Shown: in pieces, positions 8,650 through 45,037 of the stretch
Layout: each line of letters opens with the position of its first letter
Numbering within the stretch: the first letter of the stretch is position 1
IMG/VR virus record: IMGVR_UViG_3300020452_000985
Coordinates: 1 to 45,213 of that record
DNA length: 45,213 nt
Source of the DNA: a virus
Reading direction: 5' to 3' (one strand)
Notes under the pieces: generated by a model
Database searches by the model: none
Told to the model about the DNA's origin: nothing
What the model saw: the letters and a program-made list of their open reading frames with translations, nothing else
Program-made: the position numbers and the translations under genes

Positions 8650-10158
8650 TTATAGTTTATTGTAAAGAGCAGGATATTCTTTTTCAAAATCTTCACCATA
8701 AGTATCTTGCCATATTCTAGCAATTTCTCTTTTATCTTTAATCTTTCTTTGTCTGATAATTTTAACAATAGCTGGATAATGTTTTACAAAATCCTCACCG
8801 TAGGTTTTTTTCCACAGTGCTTCAATGTCTTCTTCAATATGATCTTCATGTTTATGTTTACCGTTTGAATCTTTTGTGCCATCTTGTTGAGATGATAATT
8901 CAAATAAATTACCTTCAAACATTTTTGCAAAAACTTTATAAATTTTATTCTTAGTCTTTGTGTCTGTTTTTTGTAAGTCCTTTTTGTACATTCCATACAT
9001 AAACTTTTCCCATTGCTTTTGATTCATTAGCCCTAAGAATTGAACATAATCGGCCATCTTATATACGGATGATTTATTATCATCAGCCATTTGTTTAATG
9101 TACTCACGTTCTTCCTTCCATTGATCCTTAGCTTCATTAACTGATTCTTTTAAGTATTGTCTCCACTTACTAAACTCCGGAGCCATATTTGTTCCACCGA
9201 CCTCATTGTCTTTTAATTTATCTTGAGCATCCAACCACTCTCTACTACCACTCGTTAACTGCATTGCAAATTTCTTTTTCAGATTAACGGCAAAGAGACC
9301 ACCAGGTAAACCAATTAAGAATGTACCTTTAGGAACTTTCGCATAATTTTTACCAGCAAAATGTAATGAGCCTACTGGCCCTCCAGTTGGTTTAGTGTTA
9401 TACTTTAACATTGCATCTTTTAATAAAATAGCTTGCCATTCAATACCTTCATTAATCTGTACTGATTCTTTAAATACAATAAAAGATTCACCAGCAGAAT
9501 TAGGATCTTCTAATTCTTTATACTTAACTCTCTTTTTATCTAAAAGCTTTTTAGTTTCAGGCCATGAACTTGCTACATAAGAATAAAGAATAACATTATC
9601 GTCATCATCAGTATCAAAACCTGCTTTCTTCCATATCTTTTTTGTGTCATCATCAGCATCAACTAAATAGTTAATTTCATCACCTATCTTTTTTAAATCT
9701 TTAACAATTCCTTCATACATCATATCAGGATGAAATTCCTTTTTCTTTTTCTTTTTCTTTCCATCATTAACTTCTTCTACTTTATCAGGTGCCATGTCTT
9801 TATACATTCCGTACAACCAATCCATAAAATCAGGAGTAGATTTGAATATCTTTGGAAAACCTTTCTTAAACTTTTTCTTAAAGTCTTCATAATCTTTTGA
9901 TGCATCTGCCATTAAATGAATGTTATCTAATACACCTTCTTTAATCATTCCTCCATGATCAAATTGAGATTTATTAACAGTAAAGGTTTTACCGTTTTCT
10001 CCTTTAAGCTTAAGAACATAACCATTATTATCTAATACTTCTACTTGGCCACCCATATATAAGATCTTTGAACCTTTTTTAATTTTCTTAAAATCTTTAA
10101 CATCAATTTTTTGTTGATACTGTTTAGTAAATTTTTCTAATGTAAGTATAAATCTCAT
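8650..10158 (-). CDS. Putative prohead-processed polyprotein (502 aa)
   Basis: It starts MRFILTLEKFTKQYQQKI, close to the N-terminal peptide seen in neighbouring genes. Two internal sites, KESVQINE/G (residues 231-237) and KESVNE/A (338-342), share the E-S-V-(x)-N-E pattern and would cut it into about 237-, 105- and 160-residue parts. A Lys run (KKKKKKK, 134-140) sits near the middle of the first part. WLYGMYK (114-120) and FMYGMYK (386-392) are related motifs. The C-terminus holds a tandem repeat: LWKKTYGEDFVKHYPA (448-463) and IWQDTYGEDFEKEYPA (482-497). It overlaps the upstream gene by one base. Virion-interior location is inferred. Confidence 0.62.
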   Translation of the reverse strand: MRFILTLEKFTKQYQQKIDVKDFKKIKKGSKILYMGGQVEVLDNNGYVLKLKGENGKTFTVNKSQFDHGGMIKEGVLDNIHLMADASKDYEDFKKKFKKGFPKIFKSTPDFMDWLYGMYKDMAPDKVEEVNDGKKKKKKKEFHPDMMYEGIVKDLKKIGDEINYLVDADDDTKKIWKKAGFDTDDDDNVILYSYVASSWPETKKLLDKKRVKYKELEDPNSAGESFIVFKESVQINEGIEWQAILLKDAMLKYNTKPTGGPVGSLHFAGKNYAKVPKGTFLIGLPGGLFAVNLKKKFAMQLTSGSREWLDAQDKLKDNEVGGTNMAPEFSKWRQYLKESVNEAKDQWKEEREYIKQMADDNKSSVYKMADYVQFLGLMNQKQWEKFMYGMYKKDLQKTDTKTKNKIYKVFAKMFEGNLFELSSQQDGTKDSNGKHKHEDHIEEDIEALWKKTYGEDFVKHYPAIVKIIRQRKIKDKREIARIWQDTYGEDFEKEYPALYNKL

Positions 10159-17791: not shown

Positions 17792-19810
17792 TTATTTATT
17801 TACTTCTATTTTTAGTTGACCCTTTGCTCCTTTTACATTTATAATTCCACCTTCTGTTAATTCACCTTTGAGTATTAACTCAGATATTTTATTTTCAATC
17901 ATTCTTTCTAAAGTTCTTTTTAACGGCCTAGCACCATACTTAGGATCATAACCTTCTTTTAAAATTATTTGTTTTGCAGCTTTAGATATTTTTAATTTAT
18001 AATTTCCTATCTCTTTTAAATTAGTTGATAAATCTTTACATTCAATATTTAATATCTTCATTACATCATCTTCTTGTAATCTATTGAATACAACTATTTC
18101 ATCTATACGATTTAAAAACTCTGGAGAAAACCTTCCTTTTAAAGCTTTTCTTAATGTAGCTTTTTCATCTTCCATTTGAGTAGCTAACCTTTGCTTAGAA
18201 TTAAAACCTATCCCAGATCCAAACTCTTCCAGTTTTCTTGATCCTGTATTAGATGTAAGAATAACTAAACAATTTCTAAAATCAATTACTCTACCTAATG
18301 AATCTGTTAAATGACCATCGTCTAACATTTGTAGTAATACATTAAAGACCTCTGGATGAGCTTTTTCTACTTCATCAAATAATATAACAGAGTGTGGCTT
18401 TCTTTTTACCTGCTCTGTTAAAAACCCACCACCTTCATGCCCTATATAACCTGGAGGAGCTCCAATCATTTTAGAAATAGAATGAGGTTCCATATATTCA
18501 CTCATATCAATTCTGATTAATGCATCTTCACTATTAAAAAGATAATTAGCTACTTCTTTTGCTAATTGAGTTTTTCCTACTCCGGTTGGTCCTAAGAAAA
18601 TAAAATTACCTACAGTCCTATTTCTTTTTCTTATTCCTACTCTATTTCTTTGTATAGTTACAGAAATTTTATCTACTGCATCTTGCTGTCCGATTACTTT
18701 AGATGATAAGTGATCATTAATACCTAAAAGATTTTTATTTTCTTTATCAGATATTTTTTCTATAGGAACACCTGTTGCTTTTGAAACAACTTTAAGTACA
18801 TCATCTTCTAAAATTTCTAATTGATTAACCGCCATTTGTTCTTTCCATATACGGAGATCACTTTTAATTTTATCTTTAAGTGTTAAACATGCATCTCTTT
18901 CTTTAGCTGCTAATTCATACCTCTGTTCTTCAACTGCTCTTCTCTTATCATATTCTTTTTGAACTAGTCTTTCTTCTAAATTTTTAATTTTTTGAGGAAT
19001 CTTCATATTAGTTAAATGTTTATAAGAACCTACCTCATCCAATATATCTACAGCTTTATCTGGGAAATACCTATCAATAACATAACGGTCTGCTAATTTT
19101 ACAATAAGATCTATAATTTCATCGGAATAAGATACACTATGATGATCTTCATATTTATGCCTAATGTTAGAAAGTATTTCTATTGTTTGTTCCAATGTTG
19201 GTGGCTCTACAGTTACCTTTTGGAATCTTCTATCTAAAGCACCGTCACCTTCAATATTTTCTCTAAATTCATCAAAGGTTGTAGCCCCTATGCATCTAAT
19301 TTCTCCTCTTGCTAAAGCTGGTTTAATTATATTAGATGCATCTAAAGATCCGGTAGAACCACCTGCCCCAACTAAGGTATGTAATTCATCAATAAAAACA
19401 ATAATATGTGGATTAAGAATTAATTCATCTACAATAGATTTCATCCTTTCTTCAAATTGTCCACGATATTTTGTACCTGCAACGATAGTGGATAATTCTA
19501 ATGTATAAATGATTTTACCTTGTAATGATACAGGAACATTACCCTCAGACATCTTTAAAGCTAAACCTTCCACGATAGCAGTTTTACCTACACCCGGTTC
19601 ACCAACTAAAACAGGATTATTCTTTCTTCTCCTTCCTAAAATTTGTATGACTCTCAAAATTTCTTCAGACCTTCCAATCACTGGATCTAATTTACCTTCT
19701 ATTGCTCTTTTACTTAGGTTGGTTCCATAAGTATCCAACACTAAAGTGGTCTTTTTAAATCTTGGTGCTTTCTTTTGTTTTGATTCTTCTTCTGGATAAA
19801 TTTCTCCCAT
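17792..19810 (-). CDS. ClpC/ClpA-like double-AAA+ unfoldase
   Basis: The 672-residue protein has two AAA+ modules. NBD1 carries GEPGVGKTAIVEGLAL (Walker A), VFIDELHTLVGAGG (Walker B) and GATTFDEFRENIE. A short middle coiled segment (EYDKRRAVEEQRYELAAKER) follows. NBD2 carries GPTGVGKTQLAKEVA, ILFDEVEKAHPEVFN and GARPLKRTLERMIEN. A GIGFNSK loop in NBD2 matches the (I/L/V)GF ClpP-docking tripeptide. The N-terminal substrate/adaptor domain of ClpC/ClpA is absent. It could work with host ClpP to redirect proteolysis or act as a chaperone. No phage ClpP is in the window. A strong promoter candidate lies upstream at 19829. Confidence 0.9.
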   Translation of the reverse strand: MGEIYPEEESKQKKAPRFKKTTLVLDTYGTNLSKRAIEGKLDPVIGRSEEILRVIQILGRRRKNNPVLVGEPGVGKTAIVEGLALKMSEGNVPVSLQGKIIYTLELSTIVAGTKYRGQFEERMKSIVDELILNPHIIVFIDELHTLVGAGGSTGSLDASNIIKPALARGEIRCIGATTFDEFRENIEGDGALDRRFQKVTVEPPTLEQTIEILSNIRHKYEDHHSVSYSDEIIDLIVKLADRYVIDRYFPDKAVDILDEVGSYKHLTNMKIPQKIKNLEERLVQKEYDKRRAVEEQRYELAAKERDACLTLKDKIKSDLRIWKEQMAVNQLEILEDDVLKVVSKATGVPIEKISDKENKNLLGINDHLSSKVIGQQDAVDKISVTIQRNRVGIRKRNRTVGNFIFLGPTGVGKTQLAKEVANYLFNSEDALIRIDMSEYMEPHSISKMIGAPPGYIGHEGGGFLTEQVKRKPHSVILFDEVEKAHPEVFNVLLQMLDDGHLTDSLGRVIDFRNCLVILTSNTGSRKLEEFGSGIGFNSKQRLATQMEDEKATLRKALKGRFSPEFLNRIDEIVVFNRLQEDDVMKILNIECKDLSTNLKEIGNYKLKISKAAKQIILKEGYDPKYGARPLKRTLERMIENKISELILKGELTEGGIINVKGAKGQLKIEVNK

Positions 19811-19828
19811 AGTATAATTTTATATAAA

Positions 19829-19863
19829 AAATATAACAAGTTGACTTAACTTCTGAAAGTTAA
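19829..19863 (-). promoter_or_regulatory. Bipartite promoter candidate with palindrome TTAACTTTCAGAAGTTAA
   Basis: AACTTTCAGAA-N13-GTTATATTT recurs here with the same spacing as at 15402-15434, 19 bases before the ClpC-like ATG. In this copy the upstream block is a perfect inverted repeat (TTAACTT-TCAG-AAGTTAA, 19846-19863), which could also serve as a repressor or activator site. Confidence 0.6.
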
Positions 19864-19902
19864 TGTATATTAATTATACTGAGAAATAAAAAATGGTTTA
19901 AG

Positions 19903-20232
19903 TTAAGACTTTATATAAATACTTAGTTCTGAAGTTCCTTTAATTAATCTATGAATAACACCTTTAGGAATATAAATAATCTTACCAGGTTCTATTGATT
20001 GAGGTAATTCATTATCAAACTGAAAACTCCAATCATTTTCATTTAAAGATTCCACATACCTATCTTCATCATCGGCATGCCATTTATATAAATGATCAGG
20101 TGCATCTTTATCAAAATGTCTTACTAAAGTATCAGTTGTATGAATTTGAGTAAAAGGTTTAGTCAAATCATCCATTTGTTCTATAACCTTATCATGAGAA
20201 TGTTTACCACATTTACAAGATTTGCAAGCCAT
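19903..20232 (-). CDS. Cupin-fold protein with Cys/His-rich N-terminus
   Basis: The 109-residue protein opens with a metal-binding-looking MACKSCKCGKHSHDK and continues into a single cupin. LYKWHADDEDRYVE resembles cupin motif 1, and PGKIIYIPKGVIHRLIKGT is motif 2 with its terminal His. Small cupins of this kind occur in marine T4-like phages; the ligand is unknown. It stands alone between the ClpC-like gene's promoter region and the block of internal-protein-like genes. Confidence 0.72.
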   Translation of the reverse strand: MACKSCKCGKHSHDKVIEQMDDLTKPFTQIHTTDTLVRHFDKDAPDHLYKWHADDEDRYVESLNENDWSFQFDNELPQSIEPGKIIYIPKGVIHRLIKGTSELSIYIKS

Positions 20233-22202: not shown

Positions 22203-22748
22203 TTACCAAGGATTAGTACTTTTTAATCCTAATTGCTTTCCAAATAATGAAGGTCCATAACATGCCCAAAAGCCTGCTTTGTTAGGATCCATTTTTTTCT
22301 TTTGATCACATTGGTGTCTTGCCCAAAAACTAGCGGCTCTACCTGGATCATCATTCTTTACTGCTAATTTAGGATCTCCCCATTCAATTTTCTTTGCAAC
22401 AATCTTTCCTGTTTCTTTATCGGTTCTTCCACTGTTACGATAAACAATAAACTTTCTGTTACCTCCTCTTTCTGGTGAATCAAGTTTAACATTTTTAGTT
22501 CTTCCTGATTTACGATCTTTATAAATAGCAGCCTTTCCTACTTCAAGGTTTTTAGACATCCACCCACCTTTACCTTTTAATATAAGATTACCTTCATCCC
22601 AGTATTGTTTTGCTTCCTCAAATAATTTACCATGAGCATCAGATCCTAAACGAAAAACAGTATCTTCTAAACCTATACCATTATCTACATGATACTTAAG
22701 TTCTTCAGATACTTTATCAAAATCCTTAAAGCCTTTTACAAATTTCAT
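22203..22748 (-). CDS. Putative internal protein with phage ARHxC...GFWAC domain
   Basis: A 181-residue protein starting MKFVKGFKDFDKVSEELKYH, again in the style of the neighbouring N-termini. The C-terminal half contains RKFIVYRNSGRT, AASFWARHQCDQKKKMDPNK and AGFWACYGPSLFGKQLGL. This is a recurring domain in marine phage and phage-derived proteins (A-R-H-x-C-x-x-K-K...G-Y/F-W-x-C), with its conserved His and two Cys suggesting a metal site. It abuts the next gene upstream by sharing one base. Virion location is inferred from context. Confidence 0.62.
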   Translation of the reverse strand: MKFVKGFKDFDKVSEELKYHVDNGIGLEDTVFRLGSDAHGKLFEEAKQYWDEGNLILKGKGGWMSKNLEVGKAAIYKDRKSGRTKNVKLDSPERGGNRKFIVYRNSGRTDKETGKIVAKKIEWGDPKLAVKNDDPGRAASFWARHQCDQKKKMDPNKAGFWACYGPSLFGKQLGLKSTNPW

Positions 22749-24412
22749 TACTTAGGTAAACCTGTTGTTTTTAGTTTCTTATCTTGCCCTTTATCGATAA
22801 CTTCTTTAGCAATATCAGCATCAGCTCCAAACTTTCCTTTAGGCCCATTCTTTTTAGGATTATCTAAAGGCCTTCCCCAAGTACCAGGAGCTTTAGTTAA
22901 AAATGAATTAACTCTAGCATAACCCCACTGTTCTTGGCCGGCACCAGGTCTATGTCCACTTTTCCATGCGGCCATACCTCTTCTCATTACCAATCTTAAT
23001 AAGGGTAATGCTACACCAGTCTGTTCGGATTTCTTTTTAAGACCAGTTTCTATTCCTTTTCCTTTAATAGGACCACGATCACCACTTGCCTTTTCTTCAA
23101 GACCTTCACCTAAACCTTCTTCATAAAGATCTTTTAACCAAGAATCCATATCTTTATTAGGTTTAACCTTATCACTAAACTCTTCATAAAACATTTTTCT
23201 AAACTGATTAAAGTTTTTAGCCTCCTCCATCATTACATGTAATTCACTCATTACACTTTCATTAGTAACCATTTCTTCTAAGGCTTCATCAGCATATAAA
23301 TCATCAAATGCTTTAGTGTGTTTAGATTTCTTTAAAAGTTTTTTACCTTTAGTATCACCTGGCATTTCTTTATAAGCATCTGGATTATCATCAGACATCT
23401 GAGATTGCTTTTTCATTTGATCCACCTTTTGACGAGCGGTTGATGTAGATATGCCTTTATAATATCCATCACCTTCAATTTTATCTTCAAAGGATTCCTT
23501 CTCCTTTTTCTTTTCTAATAAAAATTCTGTATATTTTTTAATAAAGTTCTTTTCGTTAACTACAGATTCTGCAAATGCTTCAATATCCCATTGAATTCTT
23601 TGTATTGGATCTTCACCTCTAAATTCTTTCTTAGCCCATTGTAATAGACCTGGTTCGTGCTTAGCGTTTTGAGCCATATCGAATGCATTTCTCCAACCAT
23701 CGTTTGACGCGACATCTTCTAACCATTGGTCATATTTCTTTCTATTCCATTTTACTTTAGCAACAGCTTTCTTGTGTGGGCCATCACCTAATTTAGAAGT
23801 AGCAGCCATATAACTGCCAGGTTTAAATACATCAAGATCTTTACCAGTCTTATCATATTTAATCTCTTTTCTAAATCTTCTTAATGAATAATTACCGCCT
23901 TCAATTTGTTTACGCCTTATAACTTCTCCTTGAGATGCACCGATAGCTATTTTCATTTCTTCTGCTTTTTTAGGATCTGTTTCAAAATGTAGATCTCTAA
24001 CTGCATTTTCAAGAACAGGATCATTTACATCCATAGCTTCAGTAACTTCTTCAGATTCAAATGCCATCTTAGCAAGCTTTTTCATATCTCTACTTTTAAG
24101 ACCATAACTCTGTAACCTATCTTCATCACCATACTCAATAAAGAATTTTTCCATATCCTTAGGTCCTTCTTGGTTTAATATTTCCATGTATCTCTCCATT
24201 GCATCTGGATCTTCTGGTAACCATTCATCCATTTTATTTAAAGCAATGTCAAATTTATTTTCATTAACTTCTTCATCTACAGGAACACAATTATTAACTC
24301 TTTTACCAGTTTTAGAAGATATCTTTGTTTTAGGAGATCCTATTTTATAACCATCCCAACAAGGGCCTGACTTTTCACATAAGAATTGCTCGTACTCTTT
24401 TATATGTTTCAT
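22748..24412 (-). CDS. Putative two-part prohead-processed polyprotein (554 aa)
   Basis: It starts MKHIKEYEQFLCEKSGPCWD, an excellent capsid-targeting-like peptide, followed by a CWDGYKIGSPKTK...GKRVNNCVP module known from marine phage proteins. Cut-like sites: EEVNE/N (48-51), EEVTE/A (121-125) and AESVVNE/K (281-287). Directly after the last, residues 289-300 repeat the targeting motif (NFIKKYTEFLLE), nearly identical to the N-terminus of 44747..45037. The C-terminus has RRGMAAWKSGHRPGAGQEQW and GYARVNSFL, another recurring phage domain. I start at ATG 24412; a TTG three codons earlier is less likely. It looks like a fusion of two packaged proteins. Confidence 0.68.
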   Translation of the reverse strand: MKHIKEYEQFLCEKSGPCWDGYKIGSPKTKISSKTGKRVNNCVPVDEEVNENKFDIALNKMDEWLPEDPDAMERYMEILNQEGPKDMEKFFIEYGDEDRLQSYGLKSRDMKKLAKMAFESEEVTEAMDVNDPVLENAVRDLHFETDPKKAEEMKIAIGASQGEVIRRKQIEGGNYSLRRFRKEIKYDKTGKDLDVFKPGSYMAATSKLGDGPHKKAVAKVKWNRKKYDQWLEDVASNDGWRNAFDMAQNAKHEPGLLQWAKKEFRGEDPIQRIQWDIEAFAESVVNEKNFIKKYTEFLLEKKKEKESFEDKIEGDGYYKGISTSTARQKVDQMKKQSQMSDDNPDAYKEMPGDTKGKKLLKKSKHTKAFDDLYADEALEEMVTNESVMSELHVMMEEAKNFNQFRKMFYEEFSDKVKPNKDMDSWLKDLYEEGLGEGLEEKASGDRGPIKGKGIETGLKKKSEQTGVALPLLRLVMRRGMAAWKSGHRPGAGQEQWGYARVNSFLTKAPGTWGRPLDNPKKNGPKGKFGADADIAKEVIDKGQDKKLKTTGLPK

Positions 24413-24414
24413 AA

Positions 24415-25476
24415 TTACCAAGCGTAATTTTTAGCCTTTACTTTTTTAGCATAATCAGTAAGTCTTTTAGCATAAGCTTTAACTTCTCTTGCATAATAGT
24501 TATCTTCTCTACCATCAGCCTTTGCATCTTTATCTTGTCTTTCGTAATCCTTATATCTTTGATAATCATCTAACATATTTCGGATGGCATTTGCACCGTC
24601 TTTAATTGATACAGATCCACCTCTAGGACTTTTGCCAATAACAAAGTTTCCGTATTGATCCATTTCACCTTTATCTAAAGCATCAGAGATATGTTGATTT
24701 AGCATTTCAATTGAATCTCTAACTGCTTTATCAATATCAGTCATTGCTGCTTTATCTTGCAAGATAGCAGTATACCTTTTACGGTTTTCATCTTTAATTT
24801 CTTTAGCAGTTTTTAAGGCAGTTGCACCCATTTTAGAATTTGCACGATCTGATTTTAATCCACTTACATCGTATTTGTCTCTTAAACTATTTAAATCTAA
24901 AACATATACACGAGTTGCGGCATCAATAAGATTCTTTCTTGTTACTTTAGGAGCAGGAGCACCGTCCCATCCATTATACAAAGAACGAGTTTCATAATCT
25001 TTTGCAAGAACTCCATATCTATCATCCGCACCTTTTCTGTGTCGGCTATAAGTTGATCCTCTATCCATTGCAAAACCGGACCACATACCAACTCCACCTC
25101 TAACAACAGAAAGTACAACTCCATATTTAGAAATGTTCTTTAAATCTAATGCACCTGGCAAATATTTTTTGTTTGCTTTTGCCCACTTAATGAAATTCTT
25201 GTCATCATCAACAAAGAATCCTACTTTATTAGGATCTTTAGCATCAGGACCTTTCCAATAAGCTGCTGGTGTGGTTGTAGTAAAATCTGAATCTGAAATT
25301 TTATCAATAGCAAGATTAGCAAATTTTTGCATGTCCTTTGCTAAATTACCGCTCCATCTTGATTTTAACCCATCTTGAGAAGCAAAATCTCTAAGAATAG
25401 ATGAACTAAATCTTTCGGTAATTAAATCAATTTGTAGAGACTCTTTAAATAATTTATAGTCTTTAATATGTTCCAT
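24415..25476 (-). CDS. Putative internal virion protein (353 aa)
   Basis: The N-terminus MEHIKDYKLFKESLQIDLIT ends in ITE/R, compatible with targeting-peptide removal after residue 21. The mature part is a mixed alpha/beta protein with YGVVLSVVRGGVGMWSGFAM, a GSTYSRHRKGADDRYG loop and a long helical C-terminus (DDYQRYKDYERQDKDAKADG, AKRLTDYAKKVKAK). It could carry an enzymatic fold similar to ADP-ribosyltransferase-like internal proteins, but I cannot show catalytic residues. A candidate late promoter at 25490-25508 precedes it, so it heads the block. Confidence 0.6.
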   Translation of the reverse strand: MEHIKDYKLFKESLQIDLITERFSSSILRDFASQDGLKSRWSGNLAKDMQKFANLAIDKISDSDFTTTTPAAYWKGPDAKDPNKVGFFVDDDKNFIKWAKANKKYLPGALDLKNISKYGVVLSVVRGGVGMWSGFAMDRGSTYSRHRKGADDRYGVLAKDYETRSLYNGWDGAPAPKVTRKNLIDAATRVYVLDLNSLRDKYDVSGLKSDRANSKMGATALKTAKEIKDENRKRYTAILQDKAAMTDIDKAVRDSIEMLNQHISDALDKGEMDQYGNFVIGKSPRGGSVSIKDGANAIRNMLDDYQRYKDYERQDKDAKADGREDNYYAREVKAYAKRLTDYAKKVKAKNYAW

Positions 25477-25489
25477 GTTAAATAGTTTG

Positions 25490-25508
25490 TTTTCTTTATT
25501 TATTCAAC
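25490..25508 (-). promoter_or_regulatory. Candidate late promoter, GTTGAATAAATAAAGAAAA
   Basis: This copy is identical over 19 bases to that at 12157-12175. The AATAAATA core lies 21 bases before the ATG of the 353-residue protein, the same distance as at the other site. It is entirely intergenic here. It probably drives the block of internal-protein-like genes 25476-20241. Confidence 0.58.
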
Positions 25509-25518
25509 AAGGAAGAAG

Positions 25519-25767
25519 TTATTTTTTAACTACAGGAGTTCCGTATTCTTGTCTGATTAATTTGAATATTTCCTCGTCTTGTCGAACTGTACCCATTTGA
25601 GTCCATTCATCATCTGAAATAACATGACCGACCCGTGAAGCCAGGCCGGTTTCTGTTATTAATGCATCTACACCTTTTGTGTACCACTCACGTATTCTAT
25701 TAATTCCACCGTCTTCATAAAGCCTTAAAACTTGTTCATTATCAATATGTCTTTTGTGGAATCCCAT
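25519..25767 (-). CDS. Hypothetical protein (82 aa)
   Basis: A soluble 82-residue protein beginning MGFHKRHIDNEQVLRLYEDG, with the middle RIREWYTKGVDALITETGLA and a C-terminal helix (QDEEIFKLIRQEYG). No family is recognised. It follows the 214-residue protein by two bases and precedes the late-promoter-like element, so it ends one transcript unit. Confidence 0.5.
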   Translation of the reverse strand: MGFHKRHIDNEQVLRLYEDGGINRIREWYTKGVDALITETGLASRVGHVISDDEWTQMGTVRQDEEIFKLIRQEYGTPVVKK

Positions 25768-25769
25768 AT

Positions 25770-26414
25770 TTACACGTTTTCTACTACTGGATCAACTTCA
25801 TCCATCAATTCATGTAACTCTTCTTCCATTTTTTGATACTCATCAATTGCAACATCAAGAATAACATCTGGATGATTAACTTCTTGATCTAATTTAGCCA
25901 TTTCTGCATGATTTTCTCGAAGAGCCTGGTTATCTTCATGTACCTTTCCAACAACTTTAGAAAGATCTGAACCAAATGCAGCCATCATTTCTACAAAATC
26001 ACGAGCAGCAAAAAATCCTTTACCTTTCATTGAAGTAATCATTGACCAAAAGATAGTAATACTTGTACCTCTTAGTTTAATATTTCCATCCCAGTCCTTT
26101 TCTCTAGTTACTGGTTGTTGTTCTTTCATGTTAGAGTATAACATAATCAAACCTGTTGCAGTAGTATGACCCCAATCAGCCTCCTTTTCTAAAAACTTCA
26201 TTATTTGTTTATAAAGTTTTGCAGAACCTACAGGAATATCATACTCATTAGTTTGAAGATCTCTTAATAAATCTTCATTCTTTTTTAATGCAGCTCTTTT
26301 ATCAGCAATGATTTCACTCATCTTTCTTGGAGGAAGCTCATTAGCTAATTCTTGCTGTCCTTCTTTAGTATCATGCGGATGTACCGCATTTTCCATTTTA
26401 ATTGTTTTTGCCAT
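25770..26414 (-). CDS. Helical hypothetical protein (214 aa)
   Basis: A largely alpha-helical, charged protein. It has PPRKMSEIIADKRAALKKNE near residue 30, a central more hydrophobic helical part (SITIFWSMITSMKGKGFFAA, DFVEMMAAFGSDL), and a long acidic C-terminal coiled segment (EYQKMEEELHELMDEVDP). No signal peptide or clear membrane helix. No family is recognised; a scaffold or virion-assembly role is possible given the neighbours. It overlaps the zinc-ribbon gene upstream by 17 bases. Confidence 0.52.
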   Translation of the reverse strand: MAKTIKMENAVHPHDTKEGQQELANELPPRKMSEIIADKRAALKKNEDLLRDLQTNEYDIPVGSAKLYKQIMKFLEKEADWGHTTATGLIMLYSNMKEQQPVTREKDWDGNIKLRGTSITIFWSMITSMKGKGFFAARDFVEMMAAFGSDLSKVVGKVHEDNQALRENHAEMAKLDQEVNHPDVILDVAIDEYQKMEEELHELMDEVDPVVENV

Positions 26415-26655
26415 CTTTATTTGTTTTTGTTTTTGTTTTAGGCGGTGCAGCCTGAAATTCTTTATTAATATTTAAACATTTACTACATTCCATTGTATCC
26501 AAAGGTAATAATCTATCTTGGCCATCAGGTGAAATAAACCTACTAACTTTTCTTAAAAAGAAAGCTGGCCTAAATACATTATGACCGCATTCATCACATA
26601 CAATTTCTGTAGTAGAATCCAAATCAATATTCATCTGTTTACCTTCCATTGCCAT
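26398..26655 (-). CDS. Zinc-ribbon protein (85 aa)
   Basis: Two Cys pairs, VCDECGHNVF and MECSKCLNINK, separated by about 35 residues, form a typical zinc ribbon. Between them lies FRPAFFLRKVSRFISPDGQD. A Lys/Thr-rich tail ends the protein. Small ribbons of this type occur widely in phages and can bind nucleic acid or protein partners. It overlaps the start of the 214-residue protein gene. Confidence 0.68.
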   Translation of the reverse strand: MAMEGKQMNIDLDSTTEIVCDECGHNVFRPAFFLRKVSRFISPDGQDRLLPLDTMECSKCLNINKEFQAAPPKTKTKTNKDGKNN

Positions 26656-27114: not shown

Positions 27115-27720
27115 TTAAAGATATCCTTTAGCTATTTTTCCTAAATAACCACTATGGTGCCTCTTAGCATATTCTGCTTTTGTAAATTTAATTTTTTTCA
27201 TTAATTCAACAACTAAGATATCACCTATCACTGTCATAAGAGTTGTAGATATAGTTGGTGTTAATCCTAAAGGACAAATTTCTTCAGCATCTCCTATATG
27301 TAAAATGATATCTGATTTCATTGCTAATGGACTTTCCTTATTACCTGTAATAGAAATAATACTAATATCAGAATACATTTGTTTAGATAATTCTACTAAT
27401 TCTAAAATTTCTCGTGTTTTTCCAGAGTTAGATAATAAAATAAGTACATCGTTCTTTTGAAGTATTCCTAGATCACCATGTTGAGCTTCGGTAGGATGCA
27501 AGTAAAATGCTGGAGTTCCTGTAGAACTAAAAGTTGTAGCAATGTTTAAAGCAATTTGGCCAGCTTTACCTATTCCTGATAATATTACCTTTCCATTAGG
27601 ACCTAAGCTATGAACTTTATTTCTAATTCTATTAATAGCCAATTCAAAAGAAAAGTCAATAGGGATATTTTTTATTGCCTCTATTTCCTTTTCAATTAAT
27701 TCCTTAATGTCTTCTTTCAT
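27115..27720 (-). CDS. kdsD: D-arabinose-5-phosphate isomerase-like SIS protein
   Basis: KdsD/KpsF/GutQ proteins interconvert ribulose-5-phosphate and arabinose-5-phosphate, the KdsA substrate. The 201-residue protein carries the SIS domain with VILSGIGKAGQIALNIATTF, SSTGTPAFYLHPTEAQHGDL (including the catalytic-site His) and DVLILLSNSGKTREILEL. It lacks the two C-terminal CBS domains of full-length KdsD, a form known in other bacteria. I start at 27720, where TAATG links it to the Gmd stop. It completes a KDO pathway with genes more than 24 kb away in the window. Confidence 0.85.
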   Translation of the reverse strand: MKEDIKELIEKEIEAIKNIPIDFSFELAINRIRNKVHSLGPNGKVILSGIGKAGQIALNIATTFSSTGTPAFYLHPTEAQHGDLGILQKNDVLILLSNSGKTREILELVELSKQMYSDISIISITGNKESPLAMKSDIILHIGDAEEICPLGLTPTISTTLMTVIGDILVVELMKKIKFTKAEYAKRHHSGYLGKIAKGYL

Positions 27721-28712
27721 TATCTTAAGGATTCCTTGCCTTGTAAAACATCCATCCAATGATCACACATTTCATGCATCATAGATTCAAAAGTATATTC
27801 TGGTTTCCATCCTAAAGTTTCTCTAATTTTTGTAGAGTCACCTTTAAGATATGGTAATTCTTCAGGTCTTAAAAATTTAGGATTTTGTACTACATAGTCC
27901 TTATAATCTAAATCTAAATATTTAAATACTAATTCACACATTTCTCTAACAGAATGAGTTTCCATTGTTGATACTACAAAATCATCTGCTTCATCATGAT
28001 TTAAAATAGCATGCATTGCTCTTACATAATCTTTTGAATGTCCCCAATCTCTATAAGAATCCATATTACCTAATTCTAATTTATCTTGTAAACCTAATTT
28101 AATAGAACATGCAGCTTTTACAACTTTATTAGTTACAAAATTACTTCCTCTTCTTGGAGATTCGTGGTTAAATAAAATTCCGTTAACTGCATGAAGTTTA
28201 TGAGCTCTTCGGTAATGTCTTACAATATTATAACCAAATACTTTAGAACATCCATAAGGTGATACAGGATTCATTATACTCGTTTCTCTTTGGAAGCCAT
28301 CATCTTCAACAGTTAAACCAAACATTTCAGAAGAAGATGCTTGATAAAATTTAGCTGTAGGACAGGCTCTTCGGTATGCTTCTAATATATTTAATACACC
28401 TAATGCATTTGTTTGAACGGTATATTGAGGAACATCAAAACTAACTCTAACATGACTTTGTGCAGCTATGTTATAAATTTCATCAGGTTGTATTTCTCCA
28501 AGTAATCTTTCTAAACTACCTTGATCGGATAAGTCTCCATAATGAGTTGTTAATTGGCCACTCTCATAAGCTGTAGTTAACCTGGCTGATTGATTTTCAG
28601 ATGTTGAATTTCTTCTTACAATACCATGTACTTCATAACCTAGACCTAGTAGGTATTCTGATAAGTATGATCCATCTTGACCATTAATTCCTGTTATAAA
28701 TGCTTTTTTCAT
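27720..28712 (-). CDS. gmd: GDP-mannose 4,6-dehydratase
   Basis: Gmd turns GDP-D-mannose into GDP-4-keto-6-deoxymannose, the precursor of GDP-fucose, GDP-rhamnose and GDP-perosamine. The 330-residue protein has the NAD(P) loop FITGINGQDGSYLSEYLLGL, the RRNS arginine segment, IYNIAAQSHVRVSFDVP, the catalytic SSSEMFG and YGCSKVFGYNIVRHYR, and FNHESPRRG. All are diagnostic for Gmd. Length is close to usual (340-370). GDP-fucose synthase (Fcl) is not found in the window, so the host or another phage gene must finish the pathway. Confidence 0.93.
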   Translation of the reverse strand: MKKAFITGINGQDGSYLSEYLLGLGYEVHGIVRRNSTSENQSARLTTAYESGQLTTHYGDLSDQGSLERLLGEIQPDEIYNIAAQSHVRVSFDVPQYTVQTNALGVLNILEAYRRACPTAKFYQASSSEMFGLTVEDDGFQRETSIMNPVSPYGCSKVFGYNIVRHYRRAHKLHAVNGILFNHESPRRGSNFVTNKVVKAACSIKLGLQDKLELGNMDSYRDWGHSKDYVRAMHAILNHDEADDFVVSTMETHSVREMCELVFKYLDLDYKDYVVQNPKFLRPEELPYLKGDSTKIRETLGWKPEYTFESMMHEMCDHWMDVLQGKESLR

Positions 28713-28733
28713 TTTCTTTTTAATTTTATTTAA

Positions 28734-29369
28734 TTATCTAGTTTGAAGATATGGATCTATACCTTCTTCTTTTTTATTAAAGACTGCCATCTTAGTTAAA
28801 TCTGGCCAATCTGTTATTACCCATTGTTTAGGTTTTGATTTAACCGCGTCATCAAATTTATCCAATCCTAACTGAGCAGTTTCAGGTGTCATATAATAAT
28901 GATACCCATAAGATTCAATATCTTGATCCCTCCAAGGAATTTCAGGTAGTCTTCCATCATATGACATTTTCTTCAAGGCAATTGCATCTTCTTCATTATC
29001 ACAAAGTATAGCACCACCTCGACCTAAAGATAAGTGCTTTTGAAATTGAAAACTTAAACACATAAACGATCCTGGAATATAACTATCTTTTTTCCATAAT
29101 ACCGCTGCATCATAAATAGGTTTAAAATGTTCATTAACTTTATAATAATCTTGCCACTCTTCATCTCTCCAATTTAGTTTTATATTTAATTTGTTAGCCA
29201 AAAAAGGAACGGAGATATAAGTTCTTTTAGGAACTGAAATATAAGAAAGATTTTGAAGTCTTAAACATAATTCAATTCCATGAGTGCATGCATCAAGGCA
29301 TACAACATAAGGTGCTCCAAAAAATTCACCTAATCTTTTTTCTAATTGTGTTACGGATTTAAAACTCAT
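28734..29369 (-). CDS. Short DegT/DnrJ/EryC1-type sugar aminotransferase
   Basis: PLP-dependent sugar aminotransferase-like. FFGAPYVVCLDACTHGIELC matches the cofactor-phosphate-binding start, KPIYDAAVLWKKDSYIPG is the central Asp region, and SFQFQKHLSLGRGGAILC holds the PLP lysine with the G-x-G-G signature. At 211 residues it lacks the C-terminal half of the usual 370-400-residue enzyme, so it may be a minimal phage version or non-catalytic. Next to Gmd it could make a 4-amino-4,6-dideoxymannose (perosamine) derivative, but that is inference. Confidence 0.78.
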   Translation of the reverse strand: MSFKSVTQLEKRLGEFFGAPYVVCLDACTHGIELCLRLQNLSYISVPKRTYISVPFLANKLNIKLNWRDEEWQDYYKVNEHFKPIYDAAVLWKKDSYIPGSFMCLSFQFQKHLSLGRGGAILCDNEEDAIALKKMSYDGRLPEIPWRDQDIESYGYHYYMTPETAQLGLDKFDDAVKSKPKQWVITDWPDLTKMAVFNKKEEGIDPYLQTR

Positions 29370-29393
29370 AATCTATATTATTATATTATATAT

Positions 29394-30296
29394 TTATATT
29401 GTTGGAAGTATAAATTGTTTAAAAATAAAGTCTTCAGCATGCAAAAGTTTTTTAGCTTTTTTATAATTTTCTAATACAGCTTTTTCTTTACTCTTATATA
29501 AATCAATATCTAAATCATTTATATCAAAATTTTCATCCATGATAATAATACCATCCAAATTAAAAAAATCACCGATGTTTGGTATTCCATAATAAACAGG
29601 AATTGTACCAGTCATAAAGCAATCGGTTAATTTTTCTGTAAACATATTTGAATACGTAGCATTTTCCATTGCAATAGAAAAGTAATAATTTTTTAAACCT
29701 TCAGCCTTATCTTCAATTTCATGATAACCTCTACCATAATGATCAACTCCAAAGTTAGTATATTTTTTAATCATTTCTTGTCTATATTCATGAGCTTCAC
29801 ATAATACTTTATCCGAGGCAATCATAGATATAAGTTTATCTTTTTTAGGAAACTTTCCATTTTTAAAATACTTATCTTCTAAAAAAGATTTACCTGAACA
29901 CAATGTAAGCTGAAATATATCATCCATCTCAGCAAGCTTTTTATCATGAGTAAATACTTTAATAAATTTCTTCTTTAATTCTTCTATATTATTTTCACAC
30001 CATTCATATATAGAATATCTTTCTTTTATTTCTTCCTTTGCATAATAAGGCAATCTTTTAGTATGCCATTTATAATAAAAAGAAACAGGCCTAGCTTCAC
30101 ATAACCAACCATAATTTTTACCTTTACTATAAAAAGAAGAATATCTTCCAATTAATGCATCATCAATATGAATAGTAATCTTCGCCGTGGCTAATCCTTG
30201 TACCCAATCTACATATTTAGTAGGACTACCCGTTGAAGATATGGTATGCTGAAAGCCACCACCACTCATATTAATTTTTGTTTTCTTAATTGCCAT
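29394..30296 (-). CDS. GT10-family alpha-1,3/4-fucosyltransferase
   Basis: The 300-residue protein has the GT10 block YYFSIAMENATYSNMFTEKL, then TDCFMTGTIPVYYGIPNIGD, FFNLDGII. In the N-terminal half VDWVQGLATAKITIHIDD and the Tyr/Lys-rich segments are less conserved. It should use GDP-fucose and an oligosaccharide acceptor. It differs clearly from the other GT10 at 2578, so the two probably make different linkages. It overlaps the sulfotransferase-acyltransferase gene by 11 bases. Confidence 0.87.
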   Translation of the reverse strand: MAIKKTKINMSGGGFQHTISSTGSPTKYVDWVQGLATAKITIHIDDALIGRYSSFYSKGKNYGWLCEARPVSFYYKWHTKRLPYYAKEEIKERYSIYEWCENNIEELKKKFIKVFTHDKKLAEMDDIFQLTLCSGKSFLEDKYFKNGKFPKKDKLISMIASDKVLCEAHEYRQEMIKKYTNFGVDHYGRGYHEIEDKAEGLKNYYFSIAMENATYSNMFTEKLTDCFMTGTIPVYYGIPNIGDFFNLDGIIIMDENFDINDLDIDLYKSKEKAVLENYKKAKKLLHAEDFIFKQFILPTI

Positions 30297-31563
30297 CAGC
30301 CATTAATTGTTTTGCATTTTCTTTAATCTTACTTCCGTCAATTACCTTTACTAATTTAGCAGGATTTCCTTTATAAACACCCCAAGGTTCAGTATCACCT
30401 ATTAATAAACTCCCAGCTGCCAATAATACACCTTCTCTTAAAATAGATCCTGGTAAGACAATAGAATTAGTTCCTATATTAGAAAATTTTTCCATAATTA
30501 CTGGTTCTATAATTTGCTTTCCTTTTAGATCTTTTGGTATTAATGCTCCAAATAATCCGCTGTCATCAAACCTATCAGAACCACAAATTATTCTGGCACC
30601 TGCCATAATATTATTAAAACCTTTACATTCAAATTGACCAGTCTTACCACCTATGATTGTTGTATAAGGTGAGATGTGAGTATAACTCCCAATCTTAGCA
30701 TTCACCGTACAATAAACGCCTTTATCAATTGCTATATGATCTCCTAATTTTGGTTTAATTTTAAACTCTGCATCGGAATGTATAAAAATATCTCTATCTT
30801 CAAAATAACATTTTACATAATCTGTTAAATGAGAATAGTCTGATGATATTAAATCATCCATAAAATATTTTTGTTCATCTGTAAATACTTTAGAATGAAA
30901 TATGCTTTGGCCTGCTGGTGATTGAGAACCACCTAATGGCTTATATAAAACTTTACATTCATTAGATCTTTCTTCATATGTATCTAAAAATGCATCTATT
31001 AATGTAATGTCACCATCTAAAAAATTAATTAACTTTATAAGTGATTCTTTAATAGTTTCTTTATTAATTAAATCTTCATAATAAAGTAATAATTTTTCTC
31101 CTTCGTAATTATGATAATCATTTAATAGAGATAAGTAATGAATAAGATCTAATGAATTTCCATCATTGGCTTCATTAAATATCAACTCAAGATTTGTTAA
31201 TTTACCTATATCTTTAAAGTTATTATCATAAATTTCAAATGGATAAGCTACATTAATATGTCTTGGTATACATTCTTTATAATTACGTAATATTAAGATA
31301 TGCTTTCCTTTGGCTTTTTTAAGCATCTTATTAACCTTAGGTTCATGTCCATGAGTATTCCACAATGTATCATTATCTTTTGTATCTTTATTTTCACTAT
31401 TAATACTAGGAGATAAAAGATGTAAAGGTTTTCTCATAGGAGTATTAGCTGGTTCACAAACGGTTTCATACTTTGTAAAATATTCTACCAAGTATCTTAA
31501 CCAATTGTTTCCACTTCTAGGATAACCTATTATAGAACCTTTACATGTATATGTTTTTTCCAT
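30286..31563 (-). CDS. Fusion of sulfotransferase and left-handed beta-helix acyltransferase
   Basis: The N-terminal 250 residues are a sulfotransferase: GSIIGYPRSGNNWLRYLVEY is the PAPS 5'-phosphosulfate loop, and KHILILRNYKECIPRHIN fits the 3'-phosphate site. The C-terminal part (about 265-415) shows the hexapeptide pattern of acetyltransferases: VYCTVNAKIGSYTHISPYTT, IGTNSIVLPGSILREGVLLA, GSLLIGDTEPWGVYKGNPAK. The 425-residue protein may thus both sulfate and acylate a glycan. The reading frame is open throughout, so the fusion is not a sequencing artefact of adjacent genes. It sits between a cupin and a GT10 gene. Confidence 0.83.
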   Translation of the reverse strand: MEKTYTCKGSIIGYPRSGNNWLRYLVEYFTKYETVCEPANTPMRKPLHLLSPSINSENKDTKDNDTLWNTHGHEPKVNKMLKKAKGKHILILRNYKECIPRHINVAYPFEIYDNNFKDIGKLTNLELIFNEANDGNSLDLIHYLSLLNDYHNYEGEKLLLYYEDLINKETIKESLIKLINFLDGDITLIDAFLDTYEERSNECKVLYKPLGGSQSPAGQSIFHSKVFTDEQKYFMDDLISSDYSHLTDYVKCYFEDRDIFIHSDAEFKIKPKLGDHIAIDKGVYCTVNAKIGSYTHISPYTTIIGGKTGQFECKGFNNIMAGARIICGSDRFDDSGLFGALIPKDLKGKQIIEPVIMEKFSNIGTNSIVLPGSILREGVLLAAGSLLIGDTEPWGVYKGNPAKLVKVIDGSKIKENAKQLMADGN

Positions 31564-31566
31564 CTT

Positions 31567-31986
31567 TTACTTTGTTTCTATAAATGTTTTATCTAACTTT
31601 TGACCTTCATACGGTCCTGTCTTATATTCATAAACAACAGTATCATCCTCTAAGATAACATAATTATGACCACCTTCTAAAGTAAAAGATGCATCACCTG
31701 GTTTTAATATAGGAGTTGCTAAAACGGTATCATCAAGATCATAAAATATACATTTCACACTACCATGAACTACTATCCAAGACTCTTGAGCAATTACATC
31801 TCTGGTTCTATTTTTCCAAATATGTTTATGTGGCTTAAATGTTTTTCCTTGATCCATTTTTAAAGTAGAACATTGAATAAATTGTTCTTCAGGAATAAGA
31901 TCTTCTCTAGGTTCAACAATTTCTGAAAATCTTTGTACTATATGTAATAGTTTTGTAGGATCTACTTTTGAATAAATTTTTTCCAT
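31567..31986 (-). CDS. Cupin-fold protein, polysaccharide-cluster type
   Basis: The 139-residue protein has TFKPHKHIWKNRT with a His pair, and a jelly-roll core ESWIVVHGSVKCIFYDLDDT, TPILKPGDASFTLEGGHNYV. Its end YEYKTGPYEGQKLDKTFIE resembles cupins that sit in O-antigen and capsule clusters, including WbuC-like proteins. Those are thought to act on sugar nucleotides or bind metals, but the reaction is not established. It is followed three bases later by the sulfotransferase fusion gene. Confidence 0.75.
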   Translation of the reverse strand: MEKIYSKVDPTKLLHIVQRFSEIVEPREDLIPEEQFIQCSTLKMDQGKTFKPHKHIWKNRTRDVIAQESWIVVHGSVKCIFYDLDDTVLATPILKPGDASFTLEGGHNYVILEDDTVVYEYKTGPYEGQKLDKTFIETK

Positions 31987-31991
31987 AATGT

Positions 31992-33536
31992 TTATTTTTT
32001 TATTATATTGTAATTTTTTATGATTGTATCAGAAAAGACTAAAGCAGCATTAGCTACATTACTAGTCCTATGTAAAAGATACTTACATTTACTTAGCATC
32101 ATCATATCTAAAAATGAATGCTCCCAAAATTCTTTCTTGTGATAATTTTCCAATTGTAATTTATAGGAATCCCCTGATTCAGTTTCACACCTATTTAAAT
32201 TATTAATAAATTTAATTCTATCTTTATACCTACGGACTAGTTTATTAATAGATTCATTATTATCAGAAGCTACAAATATTGTATTAATCTCTGGGTGTTC
32301 TTCTAATATTAAATTAATATTTTTTGCAAAATCATTAAAATTAACTTCACCGTGCTCAGGATGAATCCCATTCATATCAGTTAATCTAATATGAACACCT
32401 AATGAATTTTTAAAATCTATTTTACTTTCTTCATTTTTGATAAGCTTTTTTATTCTCTTATTGAAATTTAATTTTCTAGCTAATTTTCTTAAAAACAAAA
32501 TATCCGGTTGATTTGCTTTAACTAATAAATTAAGTTCACAATTTTCAGTACTACCAGGACCTCTATAGTCTTCTTGGCGATTATAATCTTTAGTTCTCTT
32601 AGGTTGATCAAAAATAAAATTAATCATATTTAAATCTTTAGGATTATAAGAAGATTCCATTTTATCAATTTTAATATATTCTTTCTTTTTCTTATCGTAA
32701 GTCCATTCTTTATTTTGTTGAAAAAATAGATTTTTAATATTTTCTCCAGCAGTTTCACGTACACCTTCCAGCCATTTCATATTGTATATCATTCCCATCA
32801 CTAAAGAAAATATACCACCACCTGCTACATAAATATGTTTTTTATTTACATCTTCCCATTCAGGTAATATACCATTCCAATATTCTAGATCTTTATAAGA
32901 ATCATAATTTATACTAATTTCATTATCTTCTAAATTTGTAAATTCTAAAAACTTTTCTTTAAATAAAGGCCATACTTTTGGTGAAAGATGATAACCGTCT
33001 ATATAATTATCATTGCTAGGATTATCTAATAATTCATCTAAGATAGAAACATATTTAAATCCTGAAAACATTAGCATTTCATTAAATCTTTTAGTTATTT
33101 CTACTACTTGTTCATTTCTAGTATGCCACATTGCAATATGTGGACCAATTACTCCTACATTATAACCTTGTGCTTTAATCGAAGCTAAATAAGTAACATA
33201 TTTTCTAACACATACTTCAACGGCTTTATTTATAGATGTCTTCTCTGCTTGCTGAGGGAGATGGCCACTACAATCTATTTCTCCTAAATTAAAAAATATC
33301 CAATCATTTTCTTTATCAATATTTTCTAATGATAAAATATCATGTACCCATTGTGAAGCATTCTTTTCAAAGTTATATGCTGTTAAAGGACCTAATCTAT
33401 ATTGACGAACCCCTTTAATATAAGATGCTCTTATGCTAGTTCCACCTTTACCATCCACATAACCAGGCCATGTAGGTTGCATATATGTTGTTCCACTAAA
33501 AAATGAAACGTGACTATCTCCAATAATGTGTATCAT
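31992..33536 (-). CDS. Fusion of SGNH hydrolase-like domain and fucosyltransferase-like domain
   Basis: The N-terminal 215 residues look like an SGNH esterase/acetyltransferase domain: MIHIIGDSHVSFFSG has GDSH, NLGEIDCSG follows, and DGYHLSPKVW carries the Asp-His pair. The C-terminal part (about 215-514) has GGGIFSLVMGMIYN, LGVHIRLTDMNGIHPEHGEV, NTIFVASDNNESINKLVRRY and MMMLSKCKYLLHRTSNVANA, which resemble O-fucosyltransferase/NodZ-type GT-B enzymes (HxRxxD, then SDN, then SxxS-type motifs). A bifunctional glycan editor is plausible; substrates are unknown. Confidence 0.7.
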   Translation of the reverse strand: MIHIIGDSHVSFFSGTTYMQPTWPGYVDGKGGTSIRASYIKGVRQYRLGPLTAYNFEKNASQWVHDILSLENIDKENDWIFFNLGEIDCSGHLPQQAEKTSINKAVEVCVRKYVTYLASIKAQGYNVGVIGPHIAMWHTRNEQVVEITKRFNEMLMFSGFKYVSILDELLDNPSNDNYIDGYHLSPKVWPLFKEKFLEFTNLEDNEISINYDSYKDLEYWNGILPEWEDVNKKHIYVAGGGIFSLVMGMIYNMKWLEGVRETAGENIKNLFFQQNKEWTYDKKKKEYIKIDKMESSYNPKDLNMINFIFDQPKRTKDYNRQEDYRGPGSTENCELNLLVKANQPDILFLRKLARKLNFNKRIKKLIKNEESKIDFKNSLGVHIRLTDMNGIHPEHGEVNFNDFAKNINLILEEHPEINTIFVASDNNESINKLVRRYKDRIKFINNLNRCETESGDSYKLQLENYHKKEFWEHSFLDMMMLSKCKYLLHRTSNVANAALVFSDTIIKNYNIIKK

Positions 33537-33537
33537 A

Positions 33538-37232: not shown

Positions 37233-37233
37233 T

Positions 37234-44742: not shown

Positions 44743-44746
44743 TGTT

Positions 44747-45037
44747 TTATTTTTTAAATTCTTGTTTTGGTTTTGCTTTCTTTTCAGTTCCTTTTGGAGC
44801 TCGGTGGTATACGTGAGTTGACCATGGGTCTTCTTCCTCACATTTACAAGCATCGATATGCTCTCCGCATCTCGGGCAGTCGTCTTCGACTTGTTCCAAC
44901 TCATCTGCTATTCTTTTTTCGAGTTCTTTATCAGAACCGTCATTGTTTTCAAATTCTTTCTTTTCTTTATCTCCTGCATGTTTTACTGCTTTATCCCTAA
45001 CCTCTAAAAGAAATTCATTGTACTTTTTAATAAACAT
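44747..45037 (-). CDS. Zinc-ribbon protein with capsid-targeting-like N-terminus (96 aa)
   Basis: It opens MFIKKYNEFLLEVRDKAVKH, nearly identical to the internal copy in 22748..24412 (FIKKYTEFLLE). LLE/V fits the (I/L)xE cleavage rule. A zinc-binding segment CPRCGEHIDACKCEEED follows at about residues 54-70, then a basic tail (KGTEKKAKPKQEFKK). It may be a packaged DNA-binding protein, by inference. It is far (20 kb) from the main block of such genes. Confidence 0.62.
   Translation of the reverse strand: MFIKKYNEFLLEVRDKAVKHAGDKEKKEFENNDGSDKELEKRIADELEQVEDDCPRCGEHIDACKCEEEDPWSTHVYHRAPKGTEKKAKPKQEFKK

Follow-up and report, generated by a model that had tools for sequence, protein, structure and literature searches.

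The protein encoded at 22751..24412 on the minus strand of the window (the whole stretch of 45,213 nucleotides analysed here, IMG/VR record IMGVR_UViG_3300020452_000985) is probably a precursor from a T4-like phage, in which several virion-cargo modules are fused at a VNE sequence and cut apart by the head protease. The initial annotation described it as two tagged proteins fused head to tail, and this is borne out by relatives that encode the second half separately, with 91% identity in L002. The fusion is supported, while the picture of two units is too simple, as both halves are made up of several smaller modules in a row.

The fused protein has 554 residues when read from the ATG, with the stop codon at 22748-22750, and 557 residues when read from a TTG upstream. 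All of its segments lie on the minus strand, and [LIV]xE sites are found at LCE13, VNE51, VTE125, VNE287, and LLE300. Residues 1-13 (24374..24412) are a capsid-targeting-like peptide, MKHIKEYEQFLCE, which has the aromatic-x-x-F plus [LI]xE pattern of the T4 IPIII capsid-targeting sequence with equal spacing. The next module contains GPCWDGYK (24260..24373, residues 14-51) and has EEVNE at its end. It is 88% identical in L097/G020, where it lies between LDE and EEVNE; similar segments were noticed by eye in L154 and the cultured phage C48C1, and there is also a match in Melnitz. It is followed by a module starting NKFDIALNK (24038..24259, residues 52-125), which has EEVTE at its end and no homologue among the proteins of the relatives compared. 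The N domain (23561..24037, residues about 126-284) is a mobile domain, and the VNE at the join (23552..23560, residues 285-287) is a predicted prohead-protease site. The internal capsid-targeting-like peptide KNFIKKYTEFLLE (23513..23551, residues 288-300) closes with LLE, a second [LI]xE site. Beyond it are module C1, the KSKHTK protein (23258..23512, residues 301-385, VTNE at the end), module X (SVMSEL...WLKDLY; 23093..23257, residues 386-440), and module C2 (22751..23092, residues 441-554), which belongs to DUF5824 (Pfam PF19141, E=1.4e-13). The neighboring genes on the same strand also encode tagged proteins, MEHIKDYKLFKESL... at 24415..25476 (80% identical to the L002 gene at the same place) and MKFVKGFKDF... 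at 22203..22748, a separate gene in the window.

Database and structure searches give little information on function. DUF5824 is the only Pfam family that passes its cut-off on the fused protein; neither the N domain nor C1 corresponds to a Pfam family, and profile matches of the N domain in Pfam and PHROGs include nothing credible. The C-terminal part is covered by a PHROGs match to a phage 'cytidyltransferase' family. The AF2 model of the whole protein has a mean pLDDT of 62 and a pTM of 0.30, with a single helix (residues 269-299) across the join, and in the AF2 model of the N domain the last helix stops at ESVV immediately before NE. These models are too weak for fold assignment, which was dropped. 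Neither Foldseek against the PDB nor sequence searches of solved structures found a match.

The second half of the protein is a separate gene in several relatives. A search of 2.9 million viral contigs with the fused protein found nine relatives, each matching one half only: in 557-residue numbering, L002, L003, and L010 match residues 293-557, while L004-L009 match within residues 80-301. In L002 the second half is a gene of 267 codons in the syntenic place, with a product beginning MEFIKKYTEFLLEKKKEKESF... and an N-terminus given by MEFIKKYTEFLLE / MEFIKKYTEFLLEKKKEK... Its downstream neighbor is as in the window; its upstream tagged gene differs and comes after the same MEHIKDYK gene as in the window. 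The ATG of the stand-alone gene shares one base with the stop codon of the upstream gene. The second half also stands alone in L003, L010, L013, L016, and L018 with a variant start peptide (MRFIRDFKQFITE, MKYIKTFISFLTE, MKFIKTFVNFLTE, and MKFIKNFVNFLTE in this set). The initial annotation had suggested looking for phages with the halves as separate genes led by the peptide, and for the second half L002 and these five are such phages. About 24 other proteins have the first half but not the second, and in L005, L066, and L091 the first half is the C-terminus of the protein. The peptide segment is not always held inside one globular domain, since it is the N-terminus of the homologues and since C1 is found without a preceding targeting-like peptide in L030 and Melnitz.

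The DNA sequences place the join precisely. Similarity between the window and L002 starts at TTTATTAAAAAATATACAGAA, with no homology upstream. The first 47 bases of the shared part (from TTTATT) are identical, and identity over the whole half is 88.8%. The join lies between ...GTA GTT AAC GAA AAG and TTT ATT AAA..., the latter being the L002 sequence from codon 3, counted from its start. Relatives of the N domain share the pattern GAA TCx GTA GTT AxY GAA AAR with the window up to the join and then differ (GAA TCT GTA GTT AAC GAA AAG in the window, GTA GTT ACT GAA AAG in L065, and GTA GTT AAT GAA AAA in L056). This shared pattern and the limit of homology with L002 together bracket the changeover to the codon AAC, about 3 bases. 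The join lacks an in-frame start codon, which means that no separate product consisting of the second half and its tag can be made. The exact join was sought in other viral contigs and found in none.

The internal peptide resembles the tags of the group and is not a recent DNA copy of another tag in the window. It is encoded at 23513-23548 on the minus strand as NFIKKYTEFLLE (residues 289-300) and comes right after A281-E-S-V-V-N-E287-K288. The initial annotation regarded it as an internal copy of the targeting peptide behind a VNE site and pointed to the N-terminus of a 96-residue protein, starting MFIKKYNEFLLE, at 44747..45037 on the minus strand. That protein is real, since it has homologues in G020 (61%), G008 (47%), and G006 (45%), the one in G020 having the N-terminus MFIRNYRDFLLEVRD. 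Its own N-terminus, MFIKKYNEFLLEVRD, shares 10 of the 11 core residues with the internal peptide, as stated. The peptide and its place are thus confirmed, but its derivation from the tag at 44747 is not: 26 of 33 coding bases agree, codon usage predicts a mean of 27.5 (P = 0.87), and an identity no higher than this expectation shows that the internal site is no recent DNA copy. DNA copying between the tags at 23513 and 44747 is ruled out on this basis. The internal peptide is instead the start tag that belongs to the second protein. It may act as a second anchor, or it may simply be the inherited start of the second protein. The gene at 44747-45037 and another conserved gene at 44455-44904 overlap by about 158 bases in different frames, and the same overlap is present in G020 (54555-54848 and 54694-55143).

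The similarity of the internal peptide to the tags is above chance. A position matrix was made from about 240 N-termini of the phage group, with the internal peptide and its L002 look-alike left out. The N-terminal peptide of the fused protein scores 20.7 in this matrix. The internal site scores 17.7 bits and ranks 10th of 408,170 internal positions, several of the higher-ranking positions being true N-termini with a mis-set start. Twenty shuffled proteomes contain 4 such hits in total, which gives 0.2 expected.

The N domain, C1, X, and C2 are found in differing combinations among the relatives, in agreement with the modular assembly that had been proposed for such polyproteins. Across its roughly 24 proteins, the N domain is followed by 10 different contexts and preceded by 12, and every fused form has [VIL]xE within about 20 residues of the end of the domain. 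C1 stands alone as a protein of 75-89 residues, mostly with its own N-terminal tag, in L023, L027, L028, L029, L031, and L035. C2 is a stand-alone tagged gene in L027, L028, L029, L031, L035, and the cultured phage C48C1, and the first five of these have C1 and C2 as separate small genes. The two are joined in the order C1-C2 in L020 and in the order C2-C1 in L021 and L030. The corresponding gene of L097/G020, a close relative, consists of the N domain, X, and C2 and lacks both C1 and the internal tag. Segments like X are present in many other architectures, usually just after xE. One of these is a further tagged polyprotein of the window (8650..10158, minus strand), which has module X after MIKE and a weak tag score of 6.7.

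Other features were noticed in these genomes. The proteins at L010 5995-6801 and L003 5995-6789 are homologous apart from the part that separates C1 from C2; this part, flanked by NES and NESLNE, has been swapped for unrelated sequence. The C2-C1 fusion at L021 9986-10576 has a degraded-looking targeting peptide, NGHTDGLKFIKKKTNEAESE, between the modules and is possibly an older fusion of the same type. At L005 5815-6546, L008 5109-6086, L058 1518-2660, and L087 9779-11350, in-frame leaders such as MELNENENLSLGDMAG... and MPSVSKSQQRLMG... lead up to an internal Met with a targeting-like peptide, in many cases preceded by a stretch rich in lysine, and may represent a nested second start, not a simple fusion. 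Enzyme domains are present in tagged or neighboring proteins at L010 7865-10693, L005 783-2642, and L005 6644-7801, namely a weak AAA ATPase match, a RimK-like ATP-grasp with a weak zinc-protease match, a cytidylyltransferase, and a poly(A)/CCA polymerase; these are possible virion-packaged enzymes. Within the window, many sugar- and glycosyltransferase-like genes follow one another at 27115-39362; this region is very different between relatives and is a variable glycan cassette.

Homology in the tagged proteins tends to break off at protease-type sites. Breakpoints were taken from an all-against-all comparison of non-redundant proteins, and the expectation was calculated from random positions in the same proteins. 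The tagged-protein family has 410 distinct breakpoints, 166 of which lie within 4 residues of [VIL]xE against 66.4 expected (2.5-fold). For [VIL][NTDS]E the numbers are 105 and 34.8. The breakpoints are not independent of one another, so z-scores cannot be read as probabilities. The control motifs [VIL]xK (0.79-fold) and [VIL][NTDS]D (0.90-fold) show no such effect, nor does [VIL]xE in unrelated proteins of the same genomes (0.82-fold). The reversed motif Ex[VIL] is also enriched at breakpoints (2.16-fold), likely because the junction motif ES[VI]xxE contains E-S-[VI]. The bare [VIL]xE is not commoner in tagged proteins than in others (0.94-fold), so genuine sites can only be a subset, and raw density of the motif was dropped as evidence of cleavage. 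Tagged proteins do have more of the extended motif ES[VIL]x?[NTDSA]E, by a factor of 4.8. At breakpoints V is the commonest P3 residue (58 of 119), while in N-terminal tags it is rarer (16 of 142). There is about an even chance that the modules are cassettes bounded by [VIL]xE that are shuffled like exons, in any order and with or without a tag between them.

Larger relatives encode the head protease and the capsid protein. The window, a 45-kb fragment, has no head genes, and neither it nor its nearest fragments have a protease or capsid gene; larger relatives were used for this reason. An S77 (gp21-type) prohead protease is encoded in 5 of one set of 13 larger records (G007-G009, G012, and G019) and in all six of another (G020-G025). 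The capsid protein gp23 is detected by profile in six of the 13 (G007-G009, G012, G013, and G019) and by similarity in G020 and G021. Six of six gp23 proteins have L[NY]E near residue 45, with a conserved propeptide followed by variable sequence, comparable to the propeptide cut of T4 gp23, which loses 65 residues. A Bacteroidota host is a reasonable guess from these sequences, since the nearest annotated gp23 proteins include those from phages of Tenacibaculum, Flavobacterium, and Prevotella. The gp21-type protease of G020 (L104/L105, 18182-19903) has 573 residues; its C-terminus is extended by a long series of repeats, for example YSEYLGENLTKSI, in which [LIV]xE sites are numerous. The protein gives the impression of a protease joined to a scaffold that shreds itself.

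The tags resemble those of T4 internal proteins. The propeptide of a T4 internal protein is enough to bring cargo into the head; in IPIII, targeting depends on residues 4 and 7 and processing on residues 8 and 10. Cleavage by gp21 takes place after L/I-x-E, the published P3 residue being L/I (PMC9026906). In the tag consensus of the group, F/Y, F, L/I, and E stand where IPIII has residues 4, 7, 8, and 10. Both MKHI-KEYEQFLCE and the internal KNFI-KKYTEFLLE have this pattern. By analogy with T4, peptides of this kind are predicted to target the capsid, and VNE would be a site of cleavage. No virion proteomics papers on these phages were found in the literature searched.

A similar join is present in a second lineage. 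The 2.9 million viral contigs were scanned blind twice for [VIL][NT]E followed, after a spacer of three residues, by IKx[FY]xxF[LI..]xE, and the scans returned 3 and 17 stretches. Eleven contigs form one family (L153, L154, L164-L166, and L168-L173), in which a cytidylyltransferase-type protein has the join ...SWQDVMKAVNE-DAE-IKSFSQF[LI][FY]ER-KTTQDPD. In L153 and L154, the two that were read, C1 and then C2 lie downstream of it. That a distant lineage, too, has C1-C2 behind a VNE with a targeting-like peptide reflects either an independent fusion or old inheritance. The loose-scan matches in L155, L162/L163/L167, and L174 are due to chance, and L175 is an ordinary gene start.

Cultured members of the Kyanoviridae have the same modules. 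Pelagibacter phage HTVC008M, Methylophilales phage Melnitz, and C48C1 share the C1, C2, GPCWDGYK, and 22203-type modules with the window, variously fused or split. C2 is separate in C48C1 (MITFKKYLEEK...) and fused in HTVC008M and Melnitz. The 22203-type module is separate in HTVC008M and the window but lies inside a 650-residue protein in Melnitz. Unlike in the window protein, the modules in these phages are fused behind a cytidylyltransferase. The records label the proteins as hypothetical protein or cytidyltransferase.

The T4 model suggests how the fused protein would have formed and how it would work. An N-domain module would have taken the place of the end of the upstream tagged gene and become continuous, in frame, with the gene that follows. 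This join would have fallen between ...VNE-K and codon 3 of the capsid-targeting sequence of the next gene, with loss of the intergenic stop codon and the start codon as a result. The N-terminal peptide would bring the precursor into the prohead scaffold core, and the gp21-type prohead protease would cut it after [LIV]-x-E, at LCE13 and sites such as VNE51 and VTE125. A cut after VNE287 would free KNFIKKYTEFLLE..., which is the second protein minus its Met, and LLE300 and sites beyond would follow. The modules would be freed within the head, and they would probably enter the host cell together with the DNA. Fusing or splitting such genes would cost little, since the protease would restore separate proteins, and this would explain why the same modules are separate, fused, and reordered in relatives.

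The main weakness of the precursor model is that the preference reported for T4 gp21 at P3 is L/I, while the join has V. This preference would suit a real fusion that remains an uncut multidomain ('polyvalent') protein with the peptide as a helical linker or relic. The single continuous helix that AF2 predicts across the join points the same way, and injected multidomain phage proteins that stay uncut are known, such as the N4 virion RNA polymerase (PMC5512222). An uncut protein is nevertheless rather unlikely, given that breakpoints are at [VIL]xE far more often than expected, an effect absent from unrelated proteins, that the N domain, C1, C2, and X each occur alone or in other orders, and that the large relatives encode a gp21-type protease; the AF2 confidence is also low. 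The fusion could instead be ancestral, with the separate genes of L002 and similar phages derived by splitting and the join an old relic. VNE, a targeting-like peptide, and C1-C2 in the distant lineage are in keeping with this, as is the mixture of fused and split states in cultured Kyanoviridae. However, the second half stands alone in the closer relatives (L002, L003, L010, L013, L016, and L018), L097 has the N domain but no C1 and no internal tag, and the DNA of the tag equals that of L002 over 47 bases while the upstream sequence is unrelated. An ancestral fusion seems about as improbable as an uncut protein.

The remaining explanations have much less in their favor. Two phage genomes could have been misjoined at the tag during assembly, and the exact join does occur only in this record among the viral contigs searched. 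The genes flanking the fused gene are mostly 80-87% identical to G001/L002 at 24415-26655 and 77-91% identical at 17792-20232 and 22203-22748. Both flanks are thus similarly close to G001/L002, which argues against a chimera, as two errors would be needed. The frame is also open throughout, and an analogous join is found in 11 contigs of another lineage, making an assembly chimera very unlikely. The least probable explanation, with hardly any likelihood at all, is that a lysine-rich amphipathic helix resembles a tag by coincidence. Such helices are common and the loose motif gives chance matches (L155, L162, and L174), but the orthologue that stands alone in L002 begins with just these residues, and shuffled proteomes predict just 0.2 hits of this quality.

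The precursor model has parallels in known phage systems. T4 IPI-IPIII and Alt have an N-terminal tag of 10-19 residues with the same pattern of aromatic, aromatic, L/I, and E (PMC9026906, PMC3012670). They too are processed by a serine prohead protease after L/I-x-E and are diverse cargo proteins that share the tag alone, but they are described as separate genes with N-terminal tags, whereas the window protein has an internal tag, a chain of modules, and frequent V at P3. The swapping of internal-protein genes between T-even phages was described in the 1990s and is a precedent for modularity of whole genes. Polyvalent proteins are predicted to be injected, and they are multidomain proteins with rampant domain shuffling, as here (Iyer et al. 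2017, PMC5512222). The window protein has independent shuffled domains in one polypeptide; recognisable effector enzyme domains of that set are lacking, and C2 is DUF5824. Polyvalent proteins are mostly described as single polypeptides built around effector enzymes, while the window modules are delimited by protease-type sites.

More distant systems show some of the same features. The heads of SPN3US and phiKZ have related proteases (gp245/gp175-type) and many head and ejection proteins, with long propeptides that are cut at several A-x-E sites; these cuts remove N-terminal propeptides, and the available part of this source describes no fused pair of tagged cargo proteins (PMC10052503). In phage P1, an N-terminal signal of DarB, of which 30 residues suffice, directs cargo into the head; the Dar proteins have no shared consensus tag, and the portion of the paper at hand reports no internal tag or modules joined by [LIV]xE (PMC9024508). 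No Dar-like family is among the Pfam and PHROGs matches of the fused protein, and Dar was compared by description. Fusion of separately tagged cargo at protease sites is not described in the literature searched, which has most subscription journals outside it.

The short recognition sequence of the head protease is a possible universal joint for building new injected cargo. If this reading holds, any module ending in xE could be added behind a tagged protein without harm to its maturation, which would help to account for the extreme diversity of injected phage proteins. If the modules are indeed cassettes, one gene would deliver several separately matured proteins, and fusion and fission would be close to neutral. 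The arrangement of a tag followed by [LIV]xE-bounded modules would give a sequence rule for predicting virion cargo in uncultured phages, and it would hint at ways for T4-based display and packaging in the laboratory to deliver more than one protein with each tag. Many 'hypothetical' proteins of marine phages, including those of the cultured HTVC008M and Melnitz, become testable virion cargo.
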